From a virus, in IMG/VR virus record IMGVR_UViG_3300045538_000266, positions 1-22,296 of that record: DNA of 22,296 nt. The stretch is one strand, 5' to 3'. Below are positions 4,443-20,995 of the stretch, piece after piece. Under the pieces are notes generated by a model, which was not told the DNA's origin, did not search any database, and saw only the letters and a program-made list of their open reading frames with translations. The position numbers and the translations under genes were made by a program. Position 1 is the stretch's first letter, and every line of letters begins with the position of its first letter.

Positions 4443-4964
4443 ATGAGTTACAATCAAACATTTGAAATTAGTGTAGACATTAGTTGGGATGGCGGTGAAA
4501 CAACCGAAAAAGTTATGATTGATGACGCCACCTATGATCACGATGACATTATATCAGCTGCATTTAATCAAGCCGAAGATGTTGGTGTATTTGAAAAATT
4601 TGAAAATATAACACAAGAAGATTGCGAATTTGAAATTCATATAGACGATGGTGATTTAGAAGATCTCGGTATAACCAATTCAGATGAACTGTATGAGTTT
4701 TGTGATATATTCTATTCCGATAATAATTCCTACGAGATAGAGGTATTCCAGGCGGCATACGAATGTGACATTGCATTTGAGGATATTGACGAAATGTATC
4801 AAGGTCAATGGGATAGTGACGCGGACTTCGTTAGAAACCTGTTAGAAGATATTGGAGATATACCAAAGGATTTGCCATACTATATTGCAATCGATTGGGA
4901 AACAACTGCGGAAACTGTTATGGATGACTATGTTGAAATTCGTGGTCATTATTTTAGACAATAA
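4443..4964 (+). CDS. ArdA-like antirestriction protein (DNA mimic)
   Basis: 173 residues, extremely acidic throughout. The C-terminal half matches the ArdA pattern as I know it: FQAAYECDIAFEDIDEMYQG (102-121), QWDSDADFVRNLLEDIGDIP (122-141), then LPYYIAIDWETTAETVMDDY and EIRGHYF. ArdA proteins imitate bent DNA and occupy the DNA-binding groove of type I restriction-modification enzymes, protecting incoming DNA. Total length fits the family (about 165-170). The N-terminal third (EISVDISWDGGETTEKVMID) is not clearly ArdA-like and may be divergent. It sits in an early-type operon, as expected for a function needed at entry. Confidence 0.75.
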   Translation: MSYNQTFEISVDISWDGGETTEKVMIDDATYDHDDIISAAFNQAEDVGVFEKFENITQEDCEFEIHIDDGDLEDLGITNSDELYEFCDIFYSDNNSYEIEVFQAAYECDIAFEDIDEMYQGQWDSDADFVRNLLEDIGDIPKDLPYYIAIDWETTAETVMDDYVEIRGHYFRQ

Positions 4965-4966
4965 TT

Positions 4967-4991
4967 ATTTTAGATACCGAAGGATTTAGTT
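4967..4991 (+). repeat. leader repeat copy 8 (diverged)
   Basis: ATTTTAGATACCGAAGGATT followed by TAGTT, directly before the ATG at 4992. Confidence 0.7.
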
Positions 4992-5537
4992 ATGAAAAAG
5001 ATAATCATGTTATTTGTTGCCATCCTATTTGCAACACCGATGTTTTCCCAAACGGATGAATTGGTATCAACGGGTTGGAGGCAGAACTTTGTCATATCCC
5101 ATTGTGAAGAATATGATGTGATGGTTGGCGATAACGGATATTGGGTTGTTCGATGGGGAACATCCAGAGAAGCAATCAGAGCAGCTCTAACCAGAGACGG
5201 TTTTGCATATAAGGAAACAGATAGCACTATTACTTGGGATCAAAACTCAATATACAAGTGCGAGTTACAGTTTAATGCAAAACAAAAATTTAACAGAGTG
5301 ATGTTCAATGTGACCGTTCCAGTAAAAAATGGCATCGAAATCAGTAATAGTCTCAAAAAGAAATTTGATGCCATATATCAGACACCTGGTAAATTCAAAA
5401 TGATTGGTGAATCATCATCGTATTCTTGGTTATACAATAATTGTTCCGGTAAAATGATTTACGCATTACAAGCAAATACAGCAGTTCAAGGAAATCAATA
5501 TGTGATAACCGTGATTTCATCAAGAATTGGCGAGTAA
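4992..5537 (+). CDS. secreted (periplasmic) hypothetical protein
   Basis: 181 residues with a clear Sec signal peptide: MKK, hydrophobic core IIMLFVAILFATP, then MFSQ with probable cleavage before or after Q20, the form typical of Bacteroidota. The mature part has GTSREAIRAALTRDGF (a SREA-type helix), KCELQFNAKQKFNRVMFNV and IYQTPGKF, which looks like an alpha/beta fold with no catalytic motif I recognise. It is followed at 2 nt by a lipoprotein gene. Exported phage proteins in an early region often act on the envelope, for example in superinfection exclusion, but that is an inference. Confidence 0.8.
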   Translation: MKKIIMLFVAILFATPMFSQTDELVSTGWRQNFVISHCEEYDVMVGDNGYWVVRWGTSREAIRAALTRDGFAYKETDSTITWDQNSIYKCELQFNAKQKFNRVMFNVTVPVKNGIEISNSLKKKFDAIYQTPGKFKMIGESSSYSWLYNNCSGKMIYALQANTAVQGNQYVITVISSRIGE

Positions 5538-9633: not shown

Positions 9634-10059
9634 ATGTCTATGCCGCATCCGTCACAAATTGATTGGCAAGGAATTGAGAAGAAAATGAATGAATCAAAGA
9701 CAACGCCTGCTCACAGTAATGGTGAGGAATGGCGAGAAGGTTATACGAAGATTGAACACCCCGAATGGGGAACTGCATTTGTCCGTAGGATTGATAGAGA
9801 GAAGGCCATTGAACTATTATGGGAATGGACAGAAGAAGGTTTTGATCCATACGACTTGGATCCATACGATATAATGGAGAATTATATCAGTCTCCTGCAA
9901 CATGGTATCAAAGGTTGGAAAGATTGGACAAGTGAAGAACTTGCTGAGGAACTGAATAGAATGAACACAGATACAGATTGGCACTATGAAAATGAAGAAG
10001 ATGAAAATGGTGAAGAATGTCCAGTCATTTATGAAGTTATTGATGGAGTGAAAGGATGA
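9634..10059 (+). CDS. hypothetical acidic protein, larger paralogue of 9391
   Basis: 141 residues after AAGGAATAAAACT. Residues 1-45 are an added N-terminal part (SQIDWQGIEKKMNE, HPEWGTAFVR). The middle carries the helix pair shared with the preceding gene (REKAIELLWEW ... WTSEELAEELNRM). The C-terminus is acidic (YENEEDENGEE). It is coupled to the next gene by ATGA. No known family. Confidence 0.7.
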   Translation: MSMPHPSQIDWQGIEKKMNESKTTPAHSNGEEWREGYTKIEHPEWGTAFVRRIDREKAIELLWEWTEEGFDPYDLDPYDIMENYISLLQHGIKGWKDWTSEELAEELNRMNTDTDWHYENEEDENGEECPVIYEVIDGVKG

Positions 10060-10283
10060 CGAATACCTATCAAGAATGGATGGTCATACTTGAAGATGAC
10101 CACCAGGAACTGTTTACCTATTCAACTTGGGCGTCTTGTGAGAAGGATGCCGAAGAGGATGCCATGTTCAATACGAACTTACAGGATGTCCGTAATGTGA
10201 CTGCAATCCCAATGGACACATACAGACTTGCTATAAGAACGCCAACTAACAAAGTAAAAAATCCTTTGGCAGACTCAAACTAA
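10056..10283 (+). CDS. hypothetical protein
   Basis: 75 residues, ATGA-coupled. EWMVILEDDHQELFTYSTWAS and EKDAEEDAMFNTNLQDVRNV suggest strand-helix-strand. Not recognised. Its last codons overlap the -33 element of the following promoter (TTTG at 10265-10268), as at 7152. Confidence 0.65.
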   Translation: MTNTYQEWMVILEDDHQELFTYSTWASCEKDAEEDAMFNTNLQDVRNVTAIPMDTYRLAIRTPTNKVKNPLADSN

Positions 10284-10296
10284 TTCCGTATATTTG
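10265..10296 (+). promoter_or_regulatory. Bacteroidota-type promoter
   Basis: TTTG (10265-10268), 20 nt, TATATTTG (10289-10296). The -33 element lies inside the end of the preceding coding sequence. It drives the 473-residue gene at 10331, which starts about 35 nt downstream of the -7 element after TTAAGGAAACTATAAA. Confidence 0.8.
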
Positions 10297-10330
10297 TATA
10301 TTGATTATTAAACATTAAGGAAACTATAAA

Positions 10331-11752
10331 ATGCCAAAAGTTGTGGTAAAAAGAAAAGGTGCGTCTGTTATCATTGACCGTGATGAAGTTATGAAAAACT
10401 TTTCAAACGAACAGAAAAATCGAACAGACAAAGGAAAACGATTTGAAAATAAAATTGATGATATGCTAGTCAAGCATCAGTTAGTATGTGAAAAACACAA
10501 AGCAACCGTGAGCGTAATAGAAGATGGTGTGCTTAGAAAGATTGTTCCTGACCATTTTTACGAAGGTGCTTTTGGGAAATTCTGGATAGAAGATACGATA
10601 ATTCTGGATGAAACCCATGCAGATAGACTGAATCAAAAAAAGAAAAGAGTAGAACAAAGTGGCAAGAAAGGAAAGATGAACTATGTGATATTCTTTGACA
10701 AGAACACGGATCAAAAGTCCAGAAAAAATGTTGATAGATATATCACAATACTCAAAGGCAAAGGATGGATAGTTTGTGATGGAATGCAAGAGATAAAAGA
10801 ATACATTGAAACTCTTTCAATGATTGAAGGAAAACACAAAAATGGAAAAATACAAACCGCAAAATCGGTTTTGATTCCGGTAGACAAAATTAAATTCCAC
10901 GAATCCAATAGAAATCTTGACCATGAAAGATGTAGAGATCTTGCTAAGAAGATAATCAAAAACGGATTCACTTCGCAAATCAATGTTGTTCCGGAATACA
11001 AAAACGGTAAACCTACTGGATACTTTATTGCTTACGATGGGAACCATAGATTGTATGCTGTTCAAGAGTTTGTAATAAAATTATACGGACAAATAATCGA
11101 TCAACTACCGTGCATTCTCGTTGATTGGATCAATTCAGAAATGCCAATAGAACTACACAATTTGCTAATCGAACACAACACCAACAGTAAGAAGTGGGGT
11201 ATGCCAGATTATGTTGATTCTCACTTGAAAGAATCAAAAAAACATAGACAAAGAAGTAAGGCATATTCTTTCTCAAAACTCAAATGGTTGTATGATGTGA
11301 CAGCTGAAAATCATCCTGACAATGTAACCGGAATCAAATACAACAAGACAAAGTTTTACTACCATTGTGGGCCTGTAAACTTTGATAGTGACAAAGTAGG
11401 TAAAACTAATGATCAAAATGTGGTGAAGGAAGGAACATATAGATTGTCTCAAAAAGAATTTGATACTATGATGAAACCGTTTGTCCAAGAAGTTGCAATG
11501 CCATTTGTTGCTTGGTGGGATGAAAACCGATCAAAATATACAAGTGGAATCTGTAATGTGTTCTTGAAATACCTTTACAATTACATGAAGGCTGATCCAA
11601 AAAAATATAGTCTCAAACGTGTGAAAGGTATTGCAGAGGAATTTAAGAAACTCGGAACAGACAAGATGCCAACAAAAGTTGATGATAAACAATGGAGAGC
11701 TCTTTGGAAAAACTTTGGTATCACCATTGGCAAGAATTTTCAACCAGTATAA
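10331..11752 (+). CDS. PD-(D/E)XK-like plus ParB-like domain protein
   Basis: 473 residues. Residues 30-150 look like a restriction-endonuclease-type fold: GKRFENKIDDML (35-46, with E39), VPDHF (72-76), FWIEDTIIL (84-92, E87/D88), then QKKKRVEQ (102-109) and the strand MNYVIFFD. The lysine of a strict ExK motif is not in place, so activity is uncertain. Residues 179-250 match a ParB/sulfiredoxin-like N-terminal domain: VLIPVDKIKFHESNRNLD, DLAKKIIKNGF, YFIAYDGNHRLYAVQEF, with DGNHR (236-240) at the usual nucleotide-binding loop. The C-terminal 220 residues are unassigned. In phages such proteins can be nucleases or methylation/partition relatives. It stands as a monocistronic unit between two promoters. 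Confidence 0.75.
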   Translation: MPKVVVKRKGASVIIDRDEVMKNFSNEQKNRTDKGKRFENKIDDMLVKHQLVCEKHKATVSVIEDGVLRKIVPDHFYEGAFGKFWIEDTIILDETHADRLNQKKKRVEQSGKKGKMNYVIFFDKNTDQKSRKNVDRYITILKGKGWIVCDGMQEIKEYIETLSMIEGKHKNGKIQTAKSVLIPVDKIKFHESNRNLDHERCRDLAKKIIKNGFTSQINVVPEYKNGKPTGYFIAYDGNHRLYAVQEFVIKLYGQIIDQLPCILVDWINSEMPIELHNLLIEHNTNSKKWGMPDYVDSHLKESKKHRQRSKAYSFSKLKWLYDVTAENHPDNVTGIKYNKTKFYYHCGPVNFDSDKVGKTNDQNVVKEGTYRLSQKEFDTMMKPFVQEVAMPFVAWWDENRSKYTSGICNVFLKYLYNYMKADPKKYSLKRVKGIAEEFKKLGTDKMPTKVDDKQWRALWKNFGITIGKNFQPV

Positions 11753-11759
11753 ATTATGC

Positions 11760-11790
11760 TTTGATTTCAACATAAGATTCACTATATTTG
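11760..11790 (+). promoter_or_regulatory. Bacteroidota-type promoter
   Basis: TTTG (11760-11763), 19 nt, TATATTTG (11783-11790). It lies between the ParB-like gene and the zinc-ribbon gene at 11813. Confidence 0.85.
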
Positions 11791-11812
11791 TATAACAATA
11801 AAGGATAACTCA

Positions 11813-12055
11813 ATGGATTGGATTGAAGAATACTATGATGTTGGACAGAAATACAAAGGTTATTTCATAAAGGAAAATGAATGTCCAGAATGTCATTCGG
11901 ATGCGGACATTGAATATCTTGATAGTGGTATCGGTGACAACTTTTATTTCTATGAAATGGAATGTGGTTGCGGTGCCCGTTGGACAGAATTTCACAGACT
12001 TGTTTTTGACAGTATCAGAATTGACCAACCCGTAAATAAGGAGACAGACCAATGA
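11813..12055 (+). CDS. zinc-ribbon hypothetical protein
   Basis: 80 residues after AAAGGATAACTCA. Four cysteines in ribbon order: CPEC (24-27) and CGC (51-53), separated by two predicted strands (IEYLDSG, FYFYEMEC), followed by GARWTEFHRLVF. This is typical of short phage zinc-ribbon proteins, which usually contact nucleic acid or RNA polymerase. No specific family is assigned. Coupled to the next gene by ATGA. Confidence 0.75.
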   Translation: MDWIEEYYDVGQKYKGYFIKENECPECHSDADIEYLDSGIGDNFYFYEMECGCGARWTEFHRLVFDSIRIDQPVNKETDQ

Positions 12056-15029: not shown

Positions 15030-15293
15030 ATGTTAGATACCTTAAAGACATTCATACCATTACTTGTTTTGTCCGTCATCGCAATCGGTGCAACATTTGG
15101 GGATGGTAACTTCAGCACATTCGCTGTTGGTTTAAGTAAGTATGCACTTGCCGTTGGAGCTGCATGGTTTGTTGATTCATACTTAATCAAGGAGGTAAAG
15201 ACCCGTGAGATACTTGCAGAAAATCCTGTTGCTTACGCTATTTGGTTGTTTGCTAACATCCTTACCGCTGCTCTCTGCTTCTCAAACAGTTGA
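15030..15293 (+). CDS. candidate holin
   Basis: 87 residues with three predicted membrane helices (about 7-24, 28-47, 66-84), short loops, and no motif of a transporter. Length and topology suit a class I holin, which makes the lethal pore in the inner membrane. The call rests mainly on position: its last 89 nt overlap an endolysin gene in another frame. GAGG upstream of the ATG is the ribosome binding site. Confidence 0.6.
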   Translation: MLDTLKTFIPLLVLSVIAIGATFGDGNFSTFAVGLSKYALAVGAAWFVDSYLIKEVKTREILAENPVAYAIWLFANILTAALCFSNS

Positions 15294-15786
15294 ACAGACA
15301 GACGGTGAAAGAGTAAGAAACATTGCTTACGGATTCGTTGGAACGAAAGAGGAAGGAAACAACAGCGGTTATTGGGTAAACAAATTTCTCAAATCAGTTG
15401 GATTGAGACCCGGTAATCAATGGTGTGGGGCATTCGTTTCATTTTGTCTTGATAGTGCTAAAATAAAGACTATGCGTGTTCGTTCTGGTTTAGCCAGACA
15501 CTTCATTACGAAGAACAAGACAATCCGTGCTACGAAAGTTATGAACTCAAATATGGAGATTCCTATGGGAACCGTGGTGGTTTGGCGTAGGGGAACAACA
15601 ATGTTTGGCCATGTTGGGTTCGTTGATAAATGGAAAGGGAAAGGTGGAACTACCATTGAAGGTAATACATCTTCCGGTAAAAGCGGTAGAGAATGGGATG
15701 GTGGGGGTGTATGGTATCGTAAAAGAACGATAAATCCATACAACCATTTCCGAATAACAGACTTTGCTCTGTTAGACCAAAGATAA
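15205..15786 (+). CDS. exported CHAP-domain endolysin (peptidoglycan amidase/peptidase)
   Basis: 193 residues from GTG, preceded by a strong AAGGAGG (15189-15195). The N-terminal MRYLQKILLLTLFGCLLTSLPLL is a signal sequence or signal-anchor. The CHAP core has NQWCGAFVSFC with Cys74, MFGHVGFVDKW with His136, and TTIEGNTSS with Glu152/Asn154, the expected catalytic order, so it should cut peptide or amide bonds in murein. It overlaps the holin candidate by 89 nt. Because it is exported, the holin may act to trigger activation (SAR-type) rather than to release a cytoplasmic enzyme. Confidence 0.85.
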   Translation: MRYLQKILLLTLFGCLLTSLPLLSASQTVEQTDGERVRNIAYGFVGTKEEGNNSGYWVNKFLKSVGLRPGNQWCGAFVSFCLDSAKIKTMRVRSGLARHFITKNKTIRATKVMNSNMEIPMGTVVVWRRGTTMFGHVGFVDKWKGKGGTTIEGNTSSGKSGREWDGGGVWYRKRTINPYNHFRITDFALLDQR

Positions 15787-16923: not shown

Positions 16924-17619
16924 ATGAATGGTAAAAAGGGTAGACCACCCCTGATATTAACGGAAGCACAAATCCGTTATGCAATGCAAAACAGTTTCGG
17001 TAATAAAGATGCGTCACGATTTCTTAAAGTAGATTACAGAACATATAAGAAATGGGCAAAGGAACATATTGATTCCGAAACTGGCAAGACATTATTTGAA
17101 CTACATTCAAAGGTTGGTATTCCACTCACGAGAGAAAAAAAAGATGACAAGTGGAATGGTAAATCATTTGATTGTAACAAAGGTTACAAAGAAAAGTTAG
17201 AGGATATTCTTGACGGTAAACATCCTGCATACGATTCGAGAAAGTTACGAAAGAGATTATTATTGTCAGGATGGGTTCCATGTGTTTGTGCCGCTTGTGG
17301 ATGGGATGAACCAAGAATGACTGATGGGAACTATCCACTACTGATAGACTTCATAGATAACAACTGGCGGAATACTCGGTTAGAGAATCTTCGTTTGTTG
17401 TGTTTTAATTGCTACTTCAATCTTGTAAGGACACCATCAACATCGTATCAAGGGTGGACATACGGAACAGTCTCAAAGACACCGTGGTATGGCGAGAAAC
17501 GCCCGAGAGACGGCAGATACCGTAGAAGATTGGAAGAACGAATCAAACAACAAGAACAAAAGAAAAAAGAAGAACAAGAAAAGTTTTTCGATTGGGATGG
17601 TGAGGATCAATCGGAATAA
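16924..17619 (+). CDS. HTH plus degenerate HNH-like zinc protein
   Basis: 231 residues. GRPPLILTEAQIRYAMQ and NKDASRFLKVDYRTYKKWAK (28-47) form a helix-turn-helix resembling recombinase-type HTH. A zinc-binding HNH scaffold follows: CAAC (122-125), LLIDFIDNNWRNTRLENLRL (139-158), CFNC (160-163). The histidines expected after Asp142 (here Phe143) and after Cys163 (here Tyr164) are missing, so nuclease activity is unlikely. Such proteins recur in large phages, from memory, with unknown role. The C-terminus is highly charged (EERIKQQEQKKKEEQEK). It may act as a DNA-binding regulator. Confidence 0.8.
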   Translation: MNGKKGRPPLILTEAQIRYAMQNSFGNKDASRFLKVDYRTYKKWAKEHIDSETGKTLFELHSKVGIPLTREKKDDKWNGKSFDCNKGYKEKLEDILDGKHPAYDSRKLRKRLLLSGWVPCVCAACGWDEPRMTDGNYPLLIDFIDNNWRNTRLENLRLLCFNCYFNLVRTPSTSYQGWTYGTVSKTPWYGEKRPRDGRYRRRLEERIKQQEQKKKEEQEKFFDWDGEDQSE

Positions 17620-17654: not shown

Positions 17655-17682
17655 TATTCAATAATTTTAATTGGAGGTTTTT

Positions 17683-18021
17683 ATGAAAATCGGAGGAATT
17701 GAAAATTTGATTCCACTCGAAGATAGGGTTGTTATCAGACCGAACCCTAATGAAGAAGTGACCAGTAATGGTATCATCATTCCAGAATCTGCAACAGAAG
17801 GAGCAGTTAGAGGAACTGTTATAGCTGTTGGTCCAGGAAAGTATTCAGATAGTGGAACAATTATACCAATGACAGTTCAAGAAGGTGACGAAGTTTTGTA
17901 TGGAACAAAATACTTCGGAACAGAAGTAAGTTTTGATGGTGAAGTTTTTATCATCATACCACATACAAATATCTTCTGTATATTGAATCGCAAACAAGAC
18001 AAACAAAAATCTAAAAAATAA
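17683..18021 (+). CDS. groES: phage-encoded co-chaperonin GroES (Cpn10)
   Basis: 112 residues from ATG after TTGGAGG. LIPLEDRVVIRPNPNEE is the N-terminal strand. The mobile loop VTSNGIIIPESATEGAVRG keeps the hydrophobic tripeptide (III in place of IVL) that docks on GroEL. GTVIAVGPGKY, VQEGDEVLYGTKYFGTEV and FIIIPHTNIFCIL complete the barrel. A short lysine-rich tail (RKQDKQKSKK) goes beyond the usual 95-97 residues. It forms the lid for GroEL, encoded 15 nt downstream. Phage versions often have an altered cage for folding capsid proteins, which is plausible here but not shown. Confidence 0.95.
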   Translation: MKIGGIENLIPLEDRVVIRPNPNEEVTSNGIIIPESATEGAVRGTVIAVGPGKYSDSGTIIPMTVQEGDEVLYGTKYFGTEVSFDGEVFIIIPHTNIFCILNRKQDKQKSKK

Positions 18022-19680
<1,659 letters not shown>

Positions 19681-19770: not shown

Positions 19771-20556
19771 ATGGCAATACCATCATTAGCATCTTTAATC
19801 AAACGCAGAGACCTCTCAGGAGTAGTAAGTGACACTATCTCCTATCTTGCATTGCAACCGTCTAAAAAGGTTTTGTTCATAACAACATCAACAAGATACC
19901 CATTCAATACACAATACAATAAAGGTGGAATTGAGTTAGAATTACCCAAATCAACTGAACTCGCTCTGTTCATCAAAGAACAAATACCAAACAAATCCGA
20001 GTGGATAGATATACCACAGTTAAAAATATATCCATGTGAAGGCAACGTTTCTCACAAAACTGGAAACAGTTGTGGTGTTATAGATGCGGTATTGAATGAT
20101 AAAAAAAAGAATCCAACAGGACACCACAGATGTTGGGCATCAGTAAATGATAAAGCGGATCAACTTTGGATGGTAAGTAAAGAGTTATTCAAATCGGATA
20201 TAGTTCTTTTCTTTTCATCTATCCGTTGGGGACAAACAAATGCAGAATATCAAAAGTTGATTGAAAGACTTACTTGGATAGAAAATAGGCATCACACATT
20301 AGGTGAAGATAACATATTGAAAGGTAAACAAGCCGGTTTTATTTGTATAGGACAGAATTGGAATGGTGCAAACGTTACAGAAATACAAAAGAATGTGTTA
20401 GAGTATTATGGGTTTGATACACCAGATAATCTGTTTTGGAACTGGCAATATACAACGGATTCAAATGATGAATCACAAGAATCATACGAGGCATCCGATA
20501 AACAATTTCATTTAGATTTAGGTATACCATATATTGATCCTGAAAACTATGATTAA
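19771..20556 (+). CDS. flavodoxin-like (NADPH-dependent FMN reductase type) protein
   Basis: 261 residues. KKVLFITTSTRYPFNTQYN (32-50) looks like the strand and phosphate-binding loop of a flavodoxin fold, and the spacing of ALFIKEQIPNKSEW, DIPQLKIYPCEG, SKELFKSDIVLFFSSIRWGQ and AGFICIGQNWNG fits such a fold. NPTGHHRCWAS and TWIENRHHTLGED are less general and suggest a phage-specific subgroup. FMN reductases and flavodoxins move electrons from NAD(P)H. The substrate is unknown and no Cys iron-sulfur motif is evident. First gene of the final operon, overlapping the next by 8 nt. Confidence 0.7.
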   Translation: MAIPSLASLIKRRDLSGVVSDTISYLALQPSKKVLFITTSTRYPFNTQYNKGGIELELPKSTELALFIKEQIPNKSEWIDIPQLKIYPCEGNVSHKTGNSCGVIDAVLNDKKKNPTGHHRCWASVNDKADQLWMVSKELFKSDIVLFFSSIRWGQTNAEYQKLIERLTWIENRHHTLGEDNILKGKQAGFICIGQNWNGANVTEIQKNVLEYYGFDTPDNLFWNWQYTTDSNDESQESYEASDKQFHLDLGIPYIDPENYD

Positions 20557-20995
20557 ATTAAAAGACATATTAGAAGAAGCATTTGGACTTGGTTTCAATA
20601 TAAACACACCAGTTGCTAATGTAATAAAATTAGGCAGGTCACCGTCTGGTAATATCTTCCTCAACTTTACAGAGAACGGTATACGAGAAGGCAGGTCTCC
20701 ATCTGGTGATATACTTCTTAACATCGATGGCGATAGAATAAGACTTGGTAGATCTCCATCAGGAAGAATACTTGCAAGATATGTGAATCCATTTGTTAGA
20801 TTGGGTGAGAGCACAACCGGAAAGGTTATTGCAAACATAGACTCATCTAATAGAGTTAGAGAAGGACGTTCACCATCAGGCGATATACTTGCAACAGTAG
20901 TTGTTGGTAAATTGGAAAAGACTAATCCAAAAATGGCAGGAGCTGCTGCCGCTGTTTATTTATACACTAAAAATATGATAAGGATAATAGAATGA
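20549..20995 (+). CDS. tandem-repeat protein, five 19-residue GRSPSG repeats
   Basis: 148 residues, starting in an ATGATTAA overlap. MIKLKDILEEAFGLG, then repeats at about 26-44, 45-63, 64-82, 83-102 and 103-120, each of the form (I/V)(K/R)xGRSPSGxI(L/F)xN. The fourth is diverged (VRLGESTTGKVIANI). Period 19, once 20. Such short beta repeats usually build a beta-solenoid or propeller-like surface. A hydrophobic C-terminal helix follows (MAGAAAAVYLYTKNM). The N-terminal LKDIL resembles the next protein's LKKLL. Family not recognised, virion or host-binding role only a guess. Confidence 0.75.
   Translation: MIKLKDILEEAFGLGFNINTPVANVIKLGRSPSGNIFLNFTENGIREGRSPSGDILLNIDGDRIRLGRSPSGRILARYVNPFVRLGESTTGKVIANIDSSNRVREGRSPSGDILATVVVGKLEKTNPKMAGAAAAVYLYTKNMIRIIE

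Follow-up and report, generated by a model that had tools for sequence, protein, structure and literature searches.

The DNA analysed here (the window) is a virus record of 22,296 bases, in which P0001 is a single uninterrupted ORF of 473 codons with a GC content of 0.346 (0.357 in the window). P0001 belongs to the accessory (cargo) genes of a tailed phage, the promoters of which look Bacteroidota-like, and forms a one-gene cassette inserted between two conserved small genes (Table 1). The original prediction described the gene product as a fusion of a nuclease-like and a ParB-like domain, and the residues it had singled out (E39, P73-D74, E87, K103-105 and DGNHR at 236-240, including H239) are all at the positions it had assigned to them.

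Table 1. Features in and around P0001 (positions in the window).
Feature	Position	Strand	Basis or remark
Conserved gene to the left of the variable site	10056..10283	+	Syntenic in L002, L003, L004, L006, L013 and, weakly, L012
Promoter-like site before P0001	10265..10299	+	TTTG, 20 nt, TATATTTG
Left copy of 12-bp direct repeat TATATTTGTATA, cassette edge	10289..10300	+	Comparison with gene-less L002, L003 and L006
P0001, 473-aa fusion gene	10331..11752	+	One open frame, 477 codons, no internal stop
N-terminal orphan domain, residues 1-160	10331..10810	+	No relatives; pLDDT about 37-54
ParB/sulfiredoxin-like domain, residues 180-256	10868..11098	+	AlphaFold2, Foldseek, family profile
Region aligned to stand-alone phage ParB-like family, residues 184-418	10880..11584	+	Family HMM
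N193-R194	10907..10912	+	Invariant in 91 sequences
D236-G-N-H-R240, P motif (GxxR / DGQHR; Box II)	11036..11050	+	D236, G237, H239 and R240 unchanged across 91 sequences
N283-x-N-x-K287-x-W289-x3-D293, family signature	11177..11209	+	N283, K287, W289 and D293 unchanged across 91 sequences
Residues 308-461, C-terminal; largely helical, second half of family	11252..11713	+	HMM and model
Second promoter-like site, for the next gene	11760..11793	+	Same layout: TTTG, 20 nt, TATATTTG
Right copy of 12-bp direct repeat TATATTTGTATA, cassette edge	11783..11794	+	Comparison with gene-less L002, L003 and L006
Conserved right neighbour of the variable site	11813..12055	+	Syntenic in L002, L003, L004, L006, L013 and L012

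P0001 is indeed the sole gene between two promoters. The layout of these sites (TTTG, ~20 nt, TATATTTG) is repeated in the window, and we take it to be of the Bacteroidota type on the basis of what is established for Bacteroidota promoters. The core TATATTTGTAT, with at most one mismatch, was found in 13 copies in the window against 1.75 expected, a number reached by none of 100 shuffles. As such promoter-like sites recur through the genome, the promoter of P0001 is not the 'private' one it had been thought to be. The site in front of P0001 is almost the same as that preceding the next gene in L002, L003 and L006, all of which lack P0001. In the window, P0001 sits behind the promoter that drives the next gene in L002 and L006; a second promoter precedes the next gene.

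An extended promoter cassette, RTGCTTTGATCTT ... TATATTTGTA, is repeated at window positions 2916, 6377, 6471, 6890, 7175, 10289, 11783 and 17647, and also occurs in L002, L004, L006, L012 and L013. Insertions and deletions between the sister phages coincide with these repeated cassettes, a situation reminiscent of PeSL, the mobile promoter cassettes found in T4-type phages.

Comparison with the sister phages delimits a P0001 cassette of 1,494 bp with TATATTTGTATA at both edges. The site is variable: no gene is present in L002 and L003 (39 bp), L006 (63 bp) or L012 (112 bp; all intergenic lengths by alignment ends), and in L013 the same site is occupied by a gene for a CAP/SCP-like secreted protein (positions 2256-2813; Pfam CAP, 1.4e-6). 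In L004, exactly the same site (4535-5464) carries P0002, encoding a stand-alone DGQHR ParB-like protein of 309 aa, with its own terminator-like hairpin. Since the P0002 cassette is edged by a duplicated CGCCAACTAACAAA, unlike the TATATTTGTATA of the P0001 cassette, the two genes probably entered the site independently. P0001 is a cassette peculiar to its lineage, at a variable site of a phage of the Bacteroidota type.

The assignment of the central domain of P0001 to the ParB/sulfiredoxin (ParB/Srx) fold, proposed in the original prediction, is firm, as the family profile, the invariant residues, AlphaFold2 and Foldseek all agree. AlphaFold2 supplied with the family alignment modelled residues 180-256 with a pLDDT of about 87-94; a structure prediction without an alignment gave a pLDDT of 35. 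Foldseek returned 20 PDB matches of the model at E ≤ 0.001; the proteins matched in the PDB included Noc (2.7e-5), ParB (4.7e-5) and Srx (3e-3), as well as KorB, PadC and SbnI, and viral ParB/Srx proteins were also matched. The family profile compared with the PDB gave sulfiredoxin (2.4e-5), SbnI (1.4e-4) and ParB (8e-4). The nucleotides bound by the ParB/Srx fold are CTP, ATP or GTP; fusions of the fold with further domains are common, and its nucleotide specificity is unreadable from sequence (PMC12704722).

The remainder of the protein had been described as a 220-residue unassigned C-terminus. This description does not hold, as the region is mostly the ordinary second half of a phage family typified by phrog_12305. 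The phrog_12305-like family comprises widespread phage proteins of the ParB/Srx fold, about 250 aa long, which bear the signature NR, DGQHR and NxNxKxWxxxD; examples are gp084 of Enterococcus Schiekvirus EfV12-phi1, gp41 of Flavobacterium phage lillamy9-1 and P0002. An HMM built from 23 diverse members, with P0001 left out, matched residues 184-418 of P0001 with 40.5 bits (E 3.1e-12), the best of 200 shuffles reaching 5.9 bits; a family model dominated by lillamy sequences gave just 9 bits. All ten residues invariant in a 91-sequence alignment (N193, R194, D236, G237, H239, R240, N283, K287, W289 and D293) are present in P0001. The C-terminal two-thirds of P0001 is therefore a divergent member of this family, and the condition under which the original prediction would have failed, a C-terminus of known, unrelated function, applies in part, in that this region belongs to a known phage ParB-like family.

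P0001 shares with the phrog_12305-like proteins the ParB/Srx domain, the NR, DGxHR and NxNxKxWxxxD motifs and the helical C-terminal half, and differs from them in its additional 160-aa N-terminus, in having DGNHR in place of DGQHR and in some 25-50 extra aa within the C-terminal half, which in the model correspond to a P0001-specific low-confidence stretch at about residues 332-357. Stand-alone members match phrog_12305, 'ParB-like partition protein', at 6e-15 to 2e-118; P0002 does so at 6e-17 and is homologous to the 'ParB-like partition proteins' of Flavobacterium and Enterococcus phages. phrog_12305 itself did not appear at E ≤ 10 among the PHROGs matches of P0001 residues 161-473, and other ParB PHROGs did (phrog_3951, 4.6e-5; phrog_1033, 0.0036). 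Thus, P0001 is a divergent relative rather than a core member of the phrog_12305-like family. Its closest relative is L220 (phmmer E 5.8e-9, a value computed within a small ORF set). Single-sequence searches with P0001 in Pfam, NCBIfam, phages and plasmids gave nothing strong, and PHROGs alone returned a ParB-type stretch (phrog_3951, E 8e-5). When ORFs were collected by the signature NxNxKxWxxxDY, 57 of the 80 returned also had a DGQHR-type motif; scans of viral and genome contigs with the pattern DGNHR[LF]YA hit mostly antisense or chance frames and were discarded.

The N-terminal 160 residues present a different picture. No relatives of this region were found in phages, plasmids, IMG/VR or GTDB contigs (the latter two searched by pattern), nor in 45 related virus records, further records and about 790 Bacteroidota genomes; there was no sequence match in the PDB and none credible in Pfam, PHROGs or PADLOC. 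Likewise, no full-length relative of P0001 was detected in phages, plasmids, viral and genome contigs, the 45 related virus records, the further records or the about 790 Bacteroidota genomes, and an N-terminal extension of more than 100 aa is absent from all 188 other family loci. A handful of marginal matches were set aside: TatD DNase in the PDB (residues 91-163, E 0.2-0.4), which covers part of the proposed motif region and lies above the usual threshold, and Ribosomal_S25 in Pfam (0.06-1.4) were both regarded as chance, RecA/DnaB-like ATPases from phages of the lillamy type were matched (0.04) over 28 residues only, and a likeness to ERF by hhalign had a probability below 2%. A homing endonuclease was also considered, as P0001 is an insertion, and rejected for want of any HNH, GIY-YIG or LAGLIDADG match.

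What is novel in P0001 is the combination of an orphan N-terminal domain with a diverged protein from an already known ParB/Srx family of phages, a previously unseen domain fusion on a fold for which a general NTP-binding role has recently been shown. Other ParB-CTPase-fold fusions that have been surveyed involve HNH, N6_N4_Mtase, DUF3850, DUF4417 and DUF6551 (PMC12704722); they resemble P0001 in joining an orphan ParB fold of a phage or mobile element to a lineage-specific domain, and the fused domain of P0001, unlike these, matches no Pfam family.

The N-terminal region had been proposed to contain a PD-(D/E)XK nuclease motif. We failed to find the canonical pattern PD-x(7,28)-(D/E)-x-K in residues 1-166: P73-D74 is there, but at E87-D88-T89 a threonine stands where (D/E)XK has its lysine. 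When residues 1-166 were shuffled, 7.6% of the shuffles showed the looser order (E, PD, E and K), as did 51% of those that contained 'PD'. The motif was not confirmed. Judging from its sequence, the domain appears to resemble a DNA-cutting enzyme only superficially, and it is absent elsewhere in the data searched. It may act on or bind DNA, and might conceivably represent a degenerate restriction-endonuclease-like fold.

The stand-alone relatives of P0001 offer some clues to the setting in which such proteins work. In many phages they lie in a recombination operon with ERF (Pfam, 5e-34), YqaJ (2.6e-14) and an SSB-like protein (a label taken from position and annotation in lillamy9-1). After clustering at 60% identity, 17 of 39 clusters have a same-strand ERF or YqaJ gene no more than 3 kb away, as do 7 of 23 at 45%; at control loci around GroEL, the corresponding figures were 1/80 for ERF and 0/80 for YqaJ. 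YqaJ is a PD-(D/E)XK enzyme. In several cases its gene immediately precedes the ParB-like gene, the order of the proposed fusion. Recombination operons of the ERF/YqaJ/SSB-like kind are found at loci L207, L264, L278, L331, L332, L090 and others. Among the papers searched, none described a link of ERF/YqaJ recombination genes with this ParB-like family, which is abundant in phages. For the function of P0001, the YqaJ neighbourhood and the gene order of the relatives are suggestive, but P0001, P0002 and L220 do not themselves belong to such operons.

Taken with the domain assignments, these observations lead us to favour, with roughly even confidence, the reading that P0001 is an NTP-controlled, DNA-associated accessory factor with an orphan N-terminal module. 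The DGNHR/GxxR pocket would bind, and perhaps hydrolyse, an NTP, and the C-terminal helices would contact DNA or a partner; if both are the case, P0001 would be an NTP-controlled DNA-processing factor. Pockets of this ParB/Srx type bind CTP, ATP or GTP and can couple to DNA transactions (PMC12704722, PMC4619093, PMC5512222), with precedents among NTPase/DNases (PMC4619093, PMC5512222). The likeliest setting would be phage recombination, replication or counter-defence, as ERF annealing proteins and YqaJ exonucleases are frequent neighbours of the relatives.

More specific readings can be weighed against this one. The ParB-like module may work with phage single-strand annealing and exonuclease proteins, the N-terminus being a non-catalytic targeting module that binds DNA or a partner. 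The ERF/YqaJ/SSB-like neighbourhood of the stand-alone relatives fits such a role, as does an N-terminus which is rich in lysine and has no catalytic lysine at the canonical place. Nevertheless, P0001, its closest relative L220 and its site-mate P0002 all lie outside ERF/YqaJ operons, and no ERF or YqaJ match was obtained among the proteins of the window, itself only a 22-kb fragment; we consider this role rather unlikely. If the orphan domain does not cut DNA, the ParB-like family would be a testable accessory of phage recombination.

Alternatively, P0001 may be cargo for counter-defence or superinfection exclusion, acting on host defence or rival phages. The presence/absence polymorphism and the independent occupants of the variable site among sister phages speak for such a role, an ArdA-like antirestriction protein is encoded in the same variable left arm, and conflict systems contain ParB-fold proteins (PMC5512222). 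Nevertheless, P0001 has no defence-island context, and no PADLOC model rose above noise, the best (PD-Lambda-5_A, E 0.006-0.011) being confined to the ParB stretch. We consider a counter-defence role rather unlikely.

The nucleotide-gated nuclease put forward in the original prediction fared differently in its two halves, the ParB/Srx half being borne out by the profile, the model and Foldseek, and the nuclease half being neither supported nor excluded. In the form weighed here, residues 20-160 would be a true but diverged PD-(D/E)XK nuclease, its lysine displaced and its activity under the control of the ParB/Srx domain, and P0001 would be a phage analogue of the two-part enzymes of the GmrSD/BrxU/SspE type, directed against host or rival DNA. 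The idea stays alive as (i) the low-confidence model places a helix at 34-56, strands at 61-64, 67-70, 77-79 and 82-85, and a helix at 94-108, an order compatible with the PD-(D/E)XK core (helix-3 strands-helix-strand) in which E39, D74 and E87 are plausibly placed and lysines follow at 103-105, and (ii) the stand-alone relatives often adjoin YqaJ exonucleases, sometimes directly downstream of them as in the fusion. On the other hand, besides the missing lysine, the frequency of the loose motif in shuffles and the lack of database matches described above, hhalign of residues 1-166 to YqaJ and PDDEXK_1 gave probabilities below 1%, leaving no detectable sequence similarity to the recombination exonucleases that adjoin the relatives, and the Foldseek PDB matches include no nuclease fold, the N-terminal model being too poor for this to count. 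A nuclease gated by NTP is, in our view, unlikely, and the narrower proposal that the N-terminal domain founds a new PD-(D/E)XK-derived family, with a displaced lysine and fused to a recombination-associated ParB/Srx NTPase, is slightly less likely still. If the orphan domain does cut DNA, P0001 would be a compact nucleotide-switched nuclease, and one outside the HNH-based GmrSD/BrxU/SspE group.

The type IV restriction enzymes GmrSD and BrxU are a precedent for such an enzyme, as GmrSD consists of a ParB/Srx NTPase coupled with an HNH nuclease (PMC4619093). The DUF262 domain of GmrS is a ParB/Srx domain with DGQQR, and, as in P0001, an NTPase-type domain is coupled to another domain; the partner is a C-terminal HNH domain in these enzymes and an N-terminal orphan domain in P0001. 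Stand-alone members of the family have weak similarity to GmrSD_N (E 1e-4 to 0.08), and P0001 itself matches neither GmrSD_N nor HNH. DndB and other DGQHR-domain proteins have the DGQHR signature in common with the family, and L220 has a DndB match of E 5e-6, which does not reach the curated cut-off; membership of P0001 in DndB was rejected, as P0001 itself has no DndB match and no dnd genes were recognised nearby.

Finally, the ParB fold recovered by Foldseek and the family annotation 'ParB-like partition protein' could be read as a chromosome- or plasmid-type partition protein, but we rejected P0001 as a canonical ParB of a ParABS system and regard a true ParB as highly improbable, since no HTH domain is recognised by Pfam, the ParB domain is followed by the family's own helical part, no ParA-type family match was found among the window proteins scanned, and orphans of this kind count as non-canonical in the literature (PMC12704722).

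Several other genes of the window were identified. The ArdA-like antirestriction protein is encoded at 4443-4964 (Pfam 5e-4, below the Pfam cut-off; phrog_14321, 7e-7), and a CHAP-domain protein with an N-terminal hydrophobic stretch, likely an endolysin, at 15205-15786. GroEL (18037-19680; phrog_5725, 5e-172) has GroES/Cpn10 (17671-18021; 3e-25) directly upstream, and an HNH endonuclease-like gene just upstream of the chaperonin genes (16924-17619) is kept in many relatives. A small protein of GRSPSGxIL repeats, encoded at 20534-20995, matches the Pfam 6-fold beta flower (2.5e-14).
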